Shown in pieces: positions 13,440 to 52,019 of a DNA stretch of 64,000 bases. This stretch comes from Mesobacillus sp. AQ2. GTDB lineage: Bacteria; Bacillota; Bacilli; Bacillales; Cytobacillaceae. The notes under the pieces are model-generated. The model ran no database searches. It had not been told where the DNA came from and saw only the letters and a list, made by a program, of their open reading frames with translations. A program made the translations under genes and the position numbers. Positions within the stretch are counted from its first letter, which is position 1, and the number at the start of each line of letters is the position of its first letter. The stretch covers positions 1,989,001 through 2,053,000 of the forward strand of contig NZ_CP126080.1 of NCBI RefSeq assembly GCF_030122805.1, written 5' to 3'.

Positions 13440-13535
13440 CTTCTTAGAGAGTTATAGCTTTAACAAAGTTCTAGTTAGGCCGATAATAATCTGTGAGCCA
13501 AGCTTTTGCATGATATAGATAGAGGAGAGATTATA

Positions 13536-14870
13536 TTGGCCAATAAAGGATTGAACGTAGGCAAGCAAGCACCGGATTTTACGCTGCAGGGGACAAATAA
13601 TACAAAATATAGTTTATCTGATTTTTCCGGCCAGCCGGTCATTCTTGTCTTTTTAAGAGGCACATGGTGACCGAACTGCCGGAATCAGCTGGTCCAGCTG
13701 AATGAACATTATGATTTCCTAAAAGAAAAAGGGCTTCAAGTATTGGGTATTGCAGGCCAGAATTTAAAAGGAATCCAATCGTATGTAGACAAAGAAGGAA
13801 TAAAAATTCCGATTTTGTCTGATGAATCCAGGCAAGTCATTAAGAGATATGAAGTATTTGTCCCTATTAAATGGGATAGTTTCAGGATTGCAATTCCAAG
13901 CACCTATATTTTGGATGAAGATCATGTCATCCGTTACAGCTATATCGGGGATTCGCAATTCGATCGCCCGGCGCTCGAAGAGATTTTCAGCAAAGTGGAT
14001 GAATTCCGTCTTCCTGGCGAAGCCGGGGAGGAACCGGAGGGTACCGGGAACGCTGCTGTTTTTGTTGGAGCAATGAGGGAGACCTTCCAGGATATTGTAT
14101 TATCTACCCATACAATTCAAACCAGTGTCAAACACAATCTATCGTCCATTCATGAACTGGAAAATCAGCTAACTCAGAATAAAGAGGCGTTATCACAATT
14201 CTTTTCTGTATTTGAGCAAATGGAATCACAGATCAATCGATACAGTGAGGCAATTGATAAGGTAGTTGATGGCTCTGTTGCTGTCATAGAGGATAATAGA
14301 CAGGCCTCTGACCATATGAAACAAACATCTGAATTGCTGAAGGAATTAGTGGGTTTGACACAAACGATTGGAAGCATCAGCTCGACTATTTCTTCAATTT
14401 CTGCCCAAACAAAAATCCTTGCCTTGAATGCTTCCATTGAAGCGGCAAGAGCGGGGGAGCATGGGAAAGGTTTTTCAGTGGTGGCAAAAGAAGTTGGCAA
14501 ACTGGCAGCTGCTTCTTCAGATGCGTCACAAAACATTTCCACACAACTGGAAGAAATCGAAAATAAAATCAGTTCAAGTTTCTCTTCATTTAATGATTTT
14601 GACGGGCTGATGCAGCAAATTGACGCAAAGGTAAAATCACAAAACAAAGAGTTGGAAACGATCTCGTCTGGCATACTGTCCATTAAGGACGAGAGTACCT
14701 CCCTGGCGGACCGTCTGCGAAACATCACTGACCGTGAAGAAGCCCAACAGCGGAAAATTGGCTCAGTTAAACAACAGGAATTGAATATCTCCTCAGAGAT
14801 CGATGGCATCAACAGCGATATTGAGGAAAATAATAAGCTTCTGCTTGAGTTAGATCAGAGAGTGCATTAA
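13536..14870 (+). CDS. Peroxiredoxin-like domain fused to a chemoreceptor signalling domain, with in-frame TGA at the redox Cys (candidate selenoprotein)
   Basis: Read through one TGA, the frame from TTG 13536 (AGAGGAGAG 6 bases upstream) gives 444 aa. Residues 1-165 are AhpC/TSA-peroxiredoxin-like: [15 protein letters not shown], then [10 protein letters not shown], the TGA (13668-13670, residue 45), [10 protein letters not shown], and a normal C-terminal half. In relatives the motif reads W-C-P-x-C, so TGA stands for the first Cys while Cys48 is kept. Residues about 190-444 are a methyl-accepting chemotaxis signalling domain with the hairpin tip [15 protein letters not shown]; there is no membrane segment, so the receptor would be cytosolic. 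No other lesion is seen in 1335 bases. Either TGA encodes selenocysteine (see the hairpin at 13685-13701) and this is a redox-sensing receptor, or the gene is nonsense-interrupted. Without read-through only 44 residues are made, plus perhaps a re-initiated C-terminal part. Confidence 0.65.
13668..13701 (+). other. Candidate bacterial SECIS: TGA followed by a GGUC-loop hairpin
   Basis: Twenty bases after the TGA, GGTC begins the apex of a hairpin: bases 13685-13691 pair with 13695-13701 (7 bp including a closing G-C; 6 bp if the loop is GGTCC). Known E. coli formate dehydrogenase SECIS elements have a short hairpin right after UGA, with a GGUC apical loop at a similar distance (about 18 bases). 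The sequence also encodes NQLVQLN, so chance similarity is possible. No tested folding or SelB data. Confidence 0.4.
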
Positions 14871-14882
14871 TCATAAAAAGCT

Positions 14883-14914
14883 AGCCCCTTTGTCAAAAAC
14901 AAAGGGGCTTTTAG
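14883..14914. terminator. Bidirectional terminator between the fusion gene and the RsbR-like gene
   Basis: AGCCCCTTTGT (14883-14893) and ACAAAGGGGCT (14899-14909) form a perfect 11-bp stem with a CAAAA loop followed by TTT. It sits between two convergent stop codons and could serve both. Confidence 0.85.
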
Positions 14915-21792: not shown

Positions 21793-22061
21793 ATTGATCA
21801 CTCTCCTAAAGTCCAGATTTTTGTTGGTCGACCTTAGGTAATTCTGGATGTATTACTATTATACAAGTATTAATGGTGGAAAAGCATGCGTAAATTTATC
21901 GAATTTTCAGTATATTTATATGGTAAATAATATGTGTAACTTTTTGGAAGATAATGTTTTATTGTCCATTTTGGAAAAGTTACAGGCCTAAAGTCATAAA
22001 GAACGCATTTGATACGGGCGTCTGAAGCATTAAGAATGATTTGTTAAAGAGGAGGACAAAA

Positions 22062-22508
22062 ATGTTTATATTGAATGTGGAAGGTGCGATCCAGAGAGAG
22101 GGAAAATGGCTCATTATTGAGAGGAGTACAAAGGAAGAACACGCTGGAGGGCAATTATCACTTGTTGGCGGCAAAGTAGAAAATGAAGGATTTTCTAAAG
22201 ACTTGCTTGAGCGGACCTTGAAAAGGGAGCTATTTGAGGAAGTCGGAATCGAAATTAATTGCAATTTGAAATATCTGCGAAGCAGCTCGTTTGTACTGCC
22301 TGACGGGAGAGAAGTACTCGACCTGGTGTTCCATTGTGTCATTGAAACAGGAGAACCGTTTGCAAAAAGTCCGGATGAGGTGGAGGCGGTATATTGGATG
22401 TCTGCAGAAGAAATTTATGCAAATTCAAAAGCACCAATCTGGTTAAAGGAAAGCATAGAGGAAGCCGAGCGTTATGTTCAATCTTCGACAATGAAGGCCA
22501 CCAATTAA
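22062..22508 (+). CDS. NUDIX hydrolase
   Basis: 148 aa NUDIX-fold pyrophosphohydrolase. The Nudix box starts GGKVENEGFSKD and runs to LKRELFEEVGIEI, with the REL-EE-G residues that bind Mg2+. AGAGGAGG precedes ATG 22062 by 7 bases. Substrate could be an oxidised nucleotide, ADP-ribose or CoA; nothing in the sequence decides it. One of four NUDIX genes in the window. Confidence 0.9.
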   Translation: MFILNVEGAIQREGKWLIIERSTKEEHAGGQLSLVGGKVENEGFSKDLLERTLKRELFEEVGIEINCNLKYLRSSSFVLPDGREVLDLVFHCVIETGEPFAKSPDEVEAVYWMSAEEIYANSKAPIWLKESIEEAERYVQSSTMKATN

Positions 22509-22599: not shown

Positions 22600-23238
22600 T
22601 TGAATATCTTAGAAAAGTTAGTCAGTGAATTCATGTCGATGAGTAATCATAAGCATAGATTGATCATTGGCATTGACGGGCTCAGCCGGTCAGGGAAAAC
22701 GACCATTGTAAAGAAGTTGGCTGCATTGCTCGAAGAATACGAAATGAAAAGCCAGATCATCCATTTGGATGACCATATTGTCGATCGGACGAAAAGATAT
22801 GGAACCGGTGAAGCGGAGTGGAAGGAGTATTATTACTTGCAGTGGGAAGTTGAGAAACTGGAGGAAATATTATTTGAAAAACTCCAACAAGAAAATGAAC
22901 TGGTGCTTCCATTCTATGATGAGCAACTGGATCAGCAAGTATATAAAAAGCTGGACTTAACAGGCAAGAAGGTTGTTTTGGTCGAAGGGATATTCCTGCA
23001 GCGGGAAGAATGGAAAGCGTATCTGGACTATGCCATTTTTATCGATTGCCCACGTGAAATAAGATTTCGGAGGGAAAATGCCCGAACTCGGAAGAATATC
23101 GAAAAGTTCGAGAATAGATATTGGAAAGCGGAGGATTATTATCTGGAAAAGCTCAATCCGAGGGTGAAAGCCGATAAAGTCCTAACATGTCATCAATTGG
23201 TGGACGCTCCATTTTGTATAGAAGGTGATAGTGAATGA
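22600..23238 (+). CDS. P-loop kinase, uridine kinase-like
   Basis: 212 aa P-loop protein of the uridine kinase/phosphoribulokinase type. Walker A is GIDGLSRSGKTTIVKKL (about 25-41), the Walker B-like acidic segment is IIHLDDHIVDR, and a lid-like Arg-rich segment FRRENARTRKN follows VVLVEGIFLQR. It probably phosphorylates a nucleoside or another small hydroxyl compound. TTG 22600 is taken as start with GAGAGG 9 bases upstream. The stop overlaps the next start by four bases. Confidence 0.82.
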   Translation: MNILEKLVSEFMSMSNHKHRLIIGIDGLSRSGKTTIVKKLAALLEEYEMKSQIIHLDDHIVDRTKRYGTGEAEWKEYYYLQWEVEKLEEILFEKLQQENELVLPFYDEQLDQQVYKKLDLTGKKVVLVEGIFLQREEWKAYLDYAIFIDCPREIRFRRENARTRKNIEKFENRYWKAEDYYLEKLNPRVKADKVLTCHQLVDAPFCIEGDSE

Positions 23239-23840
23239 ATTGGAAAAAAATATTTAGCATTGGCGGAGGTTCAAACCAAGACAGTAATATAGCTGACCTG
23301 GGGATTCCTGATGAGGTGCTTTCCATCATAAGTAAATTCACCACTGGCAAGTTGAAGCCGTTCTATAAAACAGATCTGTATACAGATAAGAGGGGAGAAA
23401 TCATAGGAGTCTGTATGGAGGTAAAACAGGATCAAGCGGAAAATCTTGTTTTAAAAATGAGAAAGGAAATGGAGGTATTAGGATTCCTCCCTTTTATATG
23501 TGATACCGAACATAATAAGGTGTGTATCAGCCAAGTTTCAGACCAGTTTGACATCATTAAAATTCAGCAAACCAATGGAGATAACTATGATATTAGCAAC
23601 GAAATGGTTGTTTCCAAACTGAAGGAGTGGCATCTCAGGTATCCATTCACCATCATAGGGGCGGATTTTGACTGGGTGGAAGCCACGTTCCAGGTAATTC
23701 CTGATGGTAAAAATTTGAGGTCTTTCGCCACCGAAATGTATAAATTCTGTCCAGACATCGTTGAGCAAGGGTCAGGTTCAATCAATGGATTAATGGAAGA
23801 ATTGAAAGAGTCGAAGAAATTATTCTTATGGTGGGACTGA
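23235..23840 (+). CDS. DUF4253 domain-containing protein
   Basis: 201 aa protein. The C-terminal half matches the DUF4253 pattern: FTIIGADFDWVEATFQVIP, KFCPDIVEQGSG and the terminal LFLWWD. Function unknown; the domain is widespread in Bacillus and actinomycetes, often in clusters with immunity-like or salvage genes. Here it overlaps the uridine-kinase-like gene by ATGA, so translation is coupled. There is no signal peptide. Confidence 0.85.
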   Translation: MNWKKIFSIGGGSNQDSNIADLGIPDEVLSIISKFTTGKLKPFYKTDLYTDKRGEIIGVCMEVKQDQAENLVLKMRKEMEVLGFLPFICDTEHNKVCISQVSDQFDIIKIQQTNGDNYDISNEMVVSKLKEWHLRYPFTIIGADFDWVEATFQVIPDGKNLRSFATEMYKFCPDIVEQGSGSINGLMEELKESKKLFLWWD

Positions 23841-23861
23841 TCATCATTCGGGGGGATCGAT

Positions 23862-24881
23862 ATGGATTCAAAGATTTTCGAGAAGTTTAAACATTTTGCT
23901 GTTCATGAATGCTGGGGATCAAGTCCATTATATGAATGTCTTTCTTTAAAAATAGCTGAGGATCGGGAAATGCTTGAACTTGCAAGTAAAGTGAGGATTG
24001 GCCAGCCGGTGCCAAATTTGCTTTTGGGGGCAGTACATTATTTGCTGATGCAAGGGTATGAGCATCCACTTGCTGAATTTTACCCAAGCCTGACTGACAA
24101 TCCACGGGAGAGTGATGAAGCTTTTGCTGCTTTCGTGGATTTTTGCCGGGAATATAGAGAAGAGATCACTGAGATAATTGAAAGCAAAATCGTTCAGACA
24201 AATGAGGTAAGGCGCTGTTCTTATCTATACCCGGTTTTCAGCCATATTTACCGAATGGTCCAAAAACCATTGGCCTTGATTGAAATCGGGACTAGTGCGG
24301 GCTTGCAGCTTTTCCTGGATCAATATAGCTATTCATATGGTACAGGCCAAATATATGGGAAAACTGATTCGCCTGTTCACTTAACATCAAAGATCGAAGG
24401 ACAAAATAATCTATTTAGTGAAATGGACATCCCTAAGGTGAAGACGAGGATTGGAATCGACCTGCATATTAATGATGTGAAGAATATGGAGGATTATCTT
24501 TGGCTTAATGCTCTCATTTGGCCGGAACATCATGAAAGGCGGGAACTGTTTGAAAAAGCAGCGAACTTTGTGGCTAACCAGTCTTTGAGATTAATAGAAG
24601 GGGATGGAGCAGAAATGCTCAGCTCCCTTGCTGGTGAAATCCCTGATGAGCAGGTAATCTGCGTTTTTCATACCCATGTTGCCAACCAAATGCCCGGCAC
24701 AACCAAGAAAAAGCTTTTGGACCAAGTAAAAGAGATTGGTGAAAGAAGGGACATCTTTCATATTTACAATAATATCTACGACTCAAGGCTCCACCTGGAT
24801 TACTATCTGGATGGAAAAGAAAGCCTGAACACAATCGGGGAAACCGAGGGTCATGGCCGCTGGTTCAGCTTGAATCTTTAG
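23862..24881 (+). CDS. DUF2332 family protein
   Basis: 339 aa protein of the DUF2332 family, which looks like a distant SAM-methyltransferase-like fold: ALIEIGTSAGLQLFLDQYSY resembles a glycine-rich nucleotide loop, and the conserved WPEHHERRELFEKA and VFHTHVANQMP segments are family hallmarks. No activity is established. GGGGGG-rich sequence lies before ATG 23862, 21 bases behind the DUF4253 gene, so the two may share a transcript. Confidence 0.82.
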   Translation: MDSKIFEKFKHFAVHECWGSSPLYECLSLKIAEDREMLELASKVRIGQPVPNLLLGAVHYLLMQGYEHPLAEFYPSLTDNPRESDEAFAAFVDFCREYREEITEIIESKIVQTNEVRRCSYLYPVFSHIYRMVQKPLALIEIGTSAGLQLFLDQYSYSYGTGQIYGKTDSPVHLTSKIEGQNNLFSEMDIPKVKTRIGIDLHINDVKNMEDYLWLNALIWPEHHERRELFEKAANFVANQSLRLIEGDGAEMLSSLAGEIPDEQVICVFHTHVANQMPGTTKKKLLDQVKEIGERRDIFHIYNNIYDSRLHLDYYLDGKESLNTIGETEGHGRWFSLNL

Positions 24882-51880: not shown

Positions 51881-51928
51881 GAAAGCAACTTAAGACAAAA
51901 AGAGGTCAGAAATCCGCCTCTGCATTGC

Positions 51929-52001
51929 TCACTCATAGTCAGATCATTTACGGTAATCCGGTAGAAACTTGCAGGCCATATCCCCGCGATTATATGAGTG
52001 A
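51929..52001 (-). ncRNA. Guanine-sensing purine riboswitch aptamer
   Basis: Read on the minus strand: P1 CACTCATA/TATGAGTG, then the J1/2 and P2 TATAATCGCGGGGATATGGC, the loop segments GCAAGTTTCTACC and CCGTAAATG, and the J3/1 core GACTATG. These match the purine aptamer of B. subtilis xpt almost base for base. The C in GACTATG is at the specificity position, which predicts guanine/hypoxanthine rather than adenine. Binding would favour the downstream terminator and shut off xpt-pbuX. Confidence 0.96.
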
Positions 52002-52019
52002 ATAAATTAATTTATAGTC

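Follow-up and report, generated by a model that had tools for sequence, protein, structure and literature searches.

The window analyzed here is a stretch of 64,000 nucleotides from the genome of Mesobacillus sp. AQ2 (contig NZ_CP126080.1, positions 1,989,001 to 2,053,000 of the forward strand). At 13536..14870 (+), it carries a gene coding for a candidate selenoprotein, here called Prx-MCP, which starts with TTG at 13536 and is preceded, 8 nt upstream of this start, by a Shine-Dalgarno-like AGAGGAG (13521..13527, +), a motif that also precedes the TTG start in loci L025, L026, L029, and L031. The translation comprises 444 codons plus the final TAA, and its sole internal stop is a TGA at codon 45 (13668..13670, +), in the context FLRGTW*PNCRNQL. 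An earlier note, made from the sequence alone, had described one frame interrupted only by this TGA, and this is borne out, the 445 codons given there including the final stop. Downstream of the gene we noticed by eye an inverted repeat (14883..14909; agcccctttg...caaaggggct) followed by Ts, which is a possible terminator common to Prx-MCP and the convergent gene. Concerning the surroundings, an SNF2-type helicase gene adjoins in 13 loci of the genus, and a convergent STAS-type gene in 12 (candidate labels of our own naming).

Prx-MCP is one of seven places in the window where long frames are joined over one TGA without a longer overlapping frame. Among these, 23235-23837 plus 23841-24878 resemble two adjacent genes (DUF4253 and DUF2332), and 22026-22505 carries a NUDIX domain. 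The window contains a single Rfam match above gathering score, a purine riboswitch at 51916-52017 (-).

When the TGA is read as C, Pfam places two domains above gathering score on the protein: AhpC-TSA at residues 8-134 (13557..13937, +; E 1e-32) and MCPsignal (PF00015) at residues 257-396 (E 3.7e-27, 95.7 bits), in agreement with the fusion of a peroxiredoxin-like and an MCP domain that the earlier note had claimed. The N-terminal domain is Prx-like with a ResA/BCP-like thioredoxin fold, as indicated by Pfam, PDB sequence search, structure model, and fold search. As in the UxxC selenoproteins of the Prx-like family, PF00578 is combined here with the motif U45-P-N-C48. The partner of Sec45 is Cys48, coded by TGC at 13677..13679 (+), and these two are the only Cys/Sec residues in the whole protein. 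The reading of the earlier note can be refined in one point, as the site is of the ResA/BCP-like UxxC type and not of the classical TxxC/TxxU type. As far as the accessible part of the source goes, classical Prx selenoproteins have a TXXU active site (PMC1088965). A classical peroxiredoxin was rejected, since Thr43 lies two and not three residues before U45, and residue 42 is Gly. Among the NCBIfam matches listed for five of these proteins, no family lies above cut-off; the best 25 of 35 matches of the window protein include ResA (72.8 bits against a cut-off of 170) and a SelL-related family (61.6 against 120).

The MCP cytoplasmic domain (14046..14864, +) forms a long hairpin of two antiparallel helices (171-305 and 311-443) according to Pfam, PDB matches, and the model, and it has the signalling domain of MCPs with the hairpin tip around a stretch of 11 residues. 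The most hydrophobic 19-residue stretch of the protein has a mean hydropathy of 0.98, which we take to be below the level of a membrane helix. A sensor of the CZB type was considered and rejected, as the Pfam list contains no CZB zinc domain at E 0.1.

The earlier note had proposed to look in homologues for either Cys or TGA at position 45. This is what we found in 32/32 aligned loci, where the codon is TGA in 25, TGT in six, and TGC in one (this count excludes the decayed L061 and the distant relatives L076, L077, L105, and L106). A search of the protein database recovered 38 proteins, namely 11 full-length Cys fusions from Fictibacillus, Brevibacillus, Paenibacillus, Tumebacillus, and others (41-44% identity), 26 shorter models, and one other. 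All 11 full-length fusions have Cys45, and Cys48 too. Similarly, positions 45 and 48 are occupied by Cys or Sec in 15/15 aligned rows, Cys48 being invariant across them. One exception is a stand-alone database relative, P0062, which has Trp at the site (RGTFWPNCR), possibly a UGA translated as Trp by the gene caller. Low-level UGA readthrough occurs in Bacillus and, together with P0062, would fit a UGA decoded as Trp or another residue via near-cognate suppression. However, the fusion homologues and the seven non-TGA loci have Cys at the site and not Trp, and the genome encodes a full Sec machinery (see below), which makes such decoding extremely improbable.

Ten fusion genes were used for a codon comparison, eight from the genus (leaving out the identical G006) plus those of Bacillus sp. 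cl95 and G609. The TGA is kept in all ten, with a third-position agreement with the window gene of 42-51% in the genus and 27-29% outside. Omega ranges from 0.03 to 0.25 before the TGA and from 0.04 to 0.16 after it, in the computable cases only, many dS values being saturated; for the 44 codons that precede the TGA it is 0.03-0.10 within the genus. Prx-MCP therefore shows two marks of a selenoprotein, an in-frame UGA flanked on either side by sequence under coding constraint and a Sec/Cys pair with its homologues.

These data also bear on the possibility that the TGA is a stop in a broken gene from which just a shorter MCP is made from an internal start, as in the database annotation. It is true that 26 of the 38 database proteins are shorter forms of 319-384 aa whose start lies past the site; those of Mesobacillus jeotgali and M. 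thioparans, for example, have 319 aa. However, they begin at many different places, the codons ahead of the TGA are conserved in the genus, the TGA itself is kept throughout the codon comparison, and the Cys homologues read on through the site. Moreover, real decay has a different appearance, with many stops, as in L060/L095. We consider a broken gene very unlikely. A sequencing or assembly error deserves even less credit, the identical TGA being present in two assemblies of the species (G000 and G006) and a TGA across four genera. As a side observation, the fusion models P0007, P0012, P0014-P0035, P0037, and P0038, with varied starts past the site, have lost the active site.

The earlier note had also suggested a search for the sel genes. 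In the genome of the window (G000; one contig, 4.80 Mb) we found all of them. The tRNA-Sec scores 56.1 bits against a cut-off of 47, a level that 5/14 control genomes also exceed, and ARAGORN calls the same G000 tRNA a tRNA-SeC with anticodon tca. The genes selA (567.6 bits), selB (361.7 bits), and selD (397.3 bits) are all above cut-off. Furthermore, selD has its own TGA in KAG-U-GCK, one Fdh-alpha gene (fdhA; L109, G000:C1:2864274-2866295, -) has a TGA in CNRT-U-HAPSVAGL, and a SelW-like gene with FCMM-U-NYAP (CxxU) lies between selA and selD, divergent from the latter (L018:1111-1347, -). We take these three to be classical Sec sites. Three more Fdh-alpha matches above cut-off have no internal stop. 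The tRNA-Sec and the selA, selB, and selD genes, along with the UGA codons of selD, fdhA, and the SelW-like gene, indicate that a Sec system is present and has other clients.

Concerning its distribution, selA is above cut-off in 21/21 genomes of the genus, its frame being broken or partial in G001, G009, and G020. In G020, selA (C1:1845480-1846866) is split into two overlapping frames, though the UGA fusion of that genome is intact; the split may reflect an error, a frameshift, or decay. In a survey of 48 genomes, selA is above cut-off in 15/15 of those with TGA forms, 1/7 with near Cys forms, 9/12 with distant Cys relatives, and 11/14 without a match. The gene being common in the group, this survey says only that no TGA form was seen without selA. 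The Tumebacillus-like G307 has selA, yet carries Cys at the site. Overall, the interpretation of the TGA as a Sec codon made in the earlier note gains from the presence of the sel genes, from TGA or Cys at position 45, and from the conservation of the TGA across genera, and we regard the proposed insertion of Sec at UGA codon 45 as strongly supported by these comparisons of sequences.

According to the accessible part of the source, bacterial SECIS elements (bSECIS) have a loop of 3-9 nt with a G within its first two positions, a stem of 4-16 bp, a distance of 16-37 nt from the UGA, and a minimum free energy of at most -7.5 kcal/mol (PMC13188914). Folding, comparison, and these published rules point to a bSECIS-like hairpin at 13685..13701 (+), with a 7 bp stem and a loop GUC of 3 nt (13692-13694), 21 nt past the UGA and with an energy of -12.0 kcal/mol, within all the limits. 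Taken alone, it is a weak hairpin, with z scores of -0.97 (65 nt) and -1.63 (48 nt, where 15/200 shuffles fold equally well).

We compared the hairpin in 24 of the 25 TGA genes, omitting G145, because its hairpin lies elsewhere, and keeping the decayed G667. Five outer pairs are kept in 24/24 genes, and the loop begins with G in all 24, the next base being G or U in 23. Three of six pairs are invariant. Two of the five outer pairs change on both sides, in five cells (eight when all six pairs are counted), the compensatory changes in the outer pairs being G-C to A-U in three and C-G to U-A in two. By comparison, only one of seven Cys genes has the five pairs (G289, loop CUG), and it has no G at loop positions 1-2. 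None of 500 shuffles matches the observed pairing, the cells with two-sided changes, or the covariation score; 48/500 match the number of two-sided pairs, and 286/500 the number of further pair types. Sliding the register by -1 gives a covariation score of 0.211 versus 0.194, yet just 25% of the cells pair.

In folds of 48 nt, the hairpin is within the minimum-energy structure in 17/24 TGA genes, and two of the 24 miss the energy limit of -7.5, G009 (-7.3) and G609 (-5.8). A free scan preferred another hairpin in 5/24 TGA genes (G609, G244, G690, G758, and G712) and found 4 bp hairpins in 4/7 Cys genes. Finally, much of the hairpin is dictated by the encoded protein: in each of five genes, 24-28% of random synonymous recodings still have the loop G and all five pairs. 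A single gene therefore proves little, and it is the series of diverged genes that carries the case for the hairpin.

The full fusion with one TGA is present in 9/21 genomes of the genus (G000, G003, G004, G006, G007, G008, G013, G016, and G020). Besides the two assemblies of the species, a TGA form occurs in nine further genus genomes. Seven of them have the full fusion, whereas G009 (L032/L057) and G011 (L033/L059) have only the Prx domain with its UGA and lack the MCP behind it. A C-terminal scrap, ENNKLL, is left in G009, which suggests an internal deletion. G017 and G019 have only remnants of the fusion, and none was found among the matches listed for the remaining eight genomes at the search thresholds used. 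The Prx-MCP gene is dispensable, given the eight genomes of the genus without a match, the two with the Prx part alone, and the two with remnants.

Beyond the genus, we identified TGA fusions in three further genera (G163, which is Bacillus sp. cl95, G609, and G372) and Cys fusions in G289 and G307. With the Prx domain as query, genome searches gave 16/193 at the level of the family, 12/398 at that of the class, and 39/397 at that of the order. Stand-alone UGA Prx genes with the motif RGT[WF]-U-PNC were found in G244, G435, G595, G597, G611, G630, G639, G690, G712, and G758. Such loci (L088, L089, L096-L101, L103, and L104) belong to six other genera and represent a Sec branch of the domain without MCP. 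In G145, L075 codes for a divergent Prx-like protein with RGFV-UGA-PFC and has its own 8 bp hairpin past the UGA. The locus of G667 is decayed, and the weaker matches at order level, from G823 onward, are Cys paralogues (L105 and L106 were read). A scan of genome contigs with A2 returned ten loci, of which L060 and L061 are decayed and L062 is distant.

We inferred a tree of 48 Prx domains with the site set to Cys, leaving out G145 and the decayed G667 and using stand-alone Cys relatives as outgroups, which came from a Prx-profile protein search (234 proteins, 120 of them among the matches listed). The Sec/Cys label changes four times on this tree, and three of the changes are forced by strongly supported branches, with long branches flagged. 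The Mesobacillus-type Sec clade (12 rows) and the Fictibacillus-type Cys fusions are sister groups (95/87), and G372, which has Sec, falls with the Cys fusions of the Tumebacillus type (94/84). These groupings indicate at least two exchanges between Sec and Cys in the fusion family.

A structure model built from 15 sequences (pLDDT 74.8, pTM 0.37, i.e. moderate) arranges strands and helices in a thioredoxin-like order, places U45 directly before helix 46-57, and has a helical hairpin 171-305/311-443; residues 109-118 and 158-173 are under 50 pLDDT. At this moderate quality, the coupling of the sensor to the MCP is not readable from the model. By both sequence and fold, the best PDB matches of the sensor domain are BCP (3hjp) and ResA (2h1b), and the matches of the MCP part include an aerotaxis receptor (31cj) and, among MCP structures, 3ja6 and 2ch7. 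In 8/8 genomes tested, H-kinase_dim (PF02895) of a CheA gene is above cut-off.

The resemblance of the sensor domain to ResA and BCP would also suit a Sec-dependent redox enzyme, either a thiol oxidoreductase or a peroxidase, in which the MCP helices serve for oligomerising or array docking and the job is detoxification and not sensing. The same holds for UGA Prx-only relatives without MCP, that is G011 and G009 within the fusion clade and the ten stand-alone genes of six genera. However, purifying selection acts on the MCP part (omega, where four comparisons yield a value, is 0.04-0.06), and the tip of this part is conserved, which a mere scaffold would hardly need, and we therefore regard such an enzyme as rather improbable. 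We favor, with a probability of roughly 0.8, a soluble cytosolic chemoreceptor with a ResA/BCP-like fold, whose U45-C48 pair would sense the redox state and signal via CheA. Both the stimulus and the signalling to CheA are what we infer for this receptor.

In the mechanism that we propose, the SelB/tRNA-Sec system would insert Sec at UGA codon 45, aided by the hairpin inside the reading frame, to yield a receptor of 444 residues with an N-terminal Prx-like/ResA-like sensor and a C-terminal MCP helical hairpin. An oxidant or an oxidised partner thiol would convert Sec45 and Cys48 into a selenylsulfide, and the resulting change in the sensor may reach the MCP hairpin by way of the linker (about residues 158-173) and so alter the activity of CheA. 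The Cys forms of Brevibacillus, Paenibacillus, Tumebacillus, and Fictibacillus would play the same role via a disulfide. When selenium is lacking, translation would stop at codon 45, so that the receptor would presumably depend on selenium supply too.

A more tentative idea, of clearly lower probability, is that both the synthesis and the chemistry of this chemoreceptor are selenium-dependent, that its selenol may answer oxidants or selenium compounds, and that behavior might thereby be tied to selenium status. M. selenatarsenatis is a metalloid-reducing bacillus, and the oxidants and selenium compounds in question would be those relevant to such bacilli. If so, the exchange of Cys and Sec would amount to a one-atom swap that tunes the redox set-point or the speed of the sensor. 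A single receptor with a Sec and a Cys form in nature would make the question of why selenium is used testable by a behavioral read-out. There is also an annotation gap, as many database gene models start past the site and lose the active site of the sensor.

According to the accessible part of PMC9312934, the majority of known prokaryotic selenoproteins are presumed to have a role in redox reactions. A table in the part of PMC13188914 that is available lists a TonB-dependent receptor and a putative regulatory protein (FmdB) among selenoproteins, so Sec outside enzymes has been proposed earlier. We found no description of Sec in the sensor of a chemoreceptor in the literature searched, mostly without subscription journals. 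The words "chemotaxis" and "chemoreceptor" have 0 occurrences in the accessible text of PMC13188914, PMC12013277, PMC1794560, and PMC9312934, as does "chemotaxis" in that of PMC1088965 and "methyl-accepting" and "sensor" in that of PMC13188914, and PMC13370339 makes no mention of selenocysteine or selenium. UxxC Prx-like selenoproteins, MCPs, and thiol-based cytosolic chemoreceptors are all known; what appears to be new, as far as these searches go, is Sec in a chemoreceptor sensor, which, if true, would extend the use of Sec to behavior and signalling.

Among known systems, the Prx-like thiol:disulfide oxidoreductase selenoproteins, a family listed in the accessible parts of PMC13188914, PMC9312934, and PMC1088965, share with the window protein the Pfam family (PF00578), the UxxC motif, and Cys homologues, but are listed there as oxidoreductase/Prx-like, whereas the window domain is fused to an MCP. 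ResA (2h1b) and BCP (3hjp) are similar to the sensor domain, but are recorded as stand-alone redox proteins with Cys. Bacilli also have soluble chemoreceptors of the HemAT type, in which a cytosolic haem sensor of oxygen is fused to an MCP. The layout of cytosolic sensor plus MCP is thus alike, with haem in HemAT and a selenol/thiol pair in the window protein. TlpD, a soluble chemoreceptor that senses oxidant through a cysteine, is likewise a cytosolic redox chemoreceptor of the CZB type, with a 3His/1Cys zinc site (PMC6715182, in the part available), whereas the window protein has Sec-x-x-Cys in a thioredoxin fold and no CZB domain. The architecture of the window protein is shared by the Cys redoxin/MCP fusions known by their database names (P0001-P0006, P0008-P0011, and P0013), of 441-448 aa and with conserved C45 and C48, which have Cys where the window protein would have Sec.
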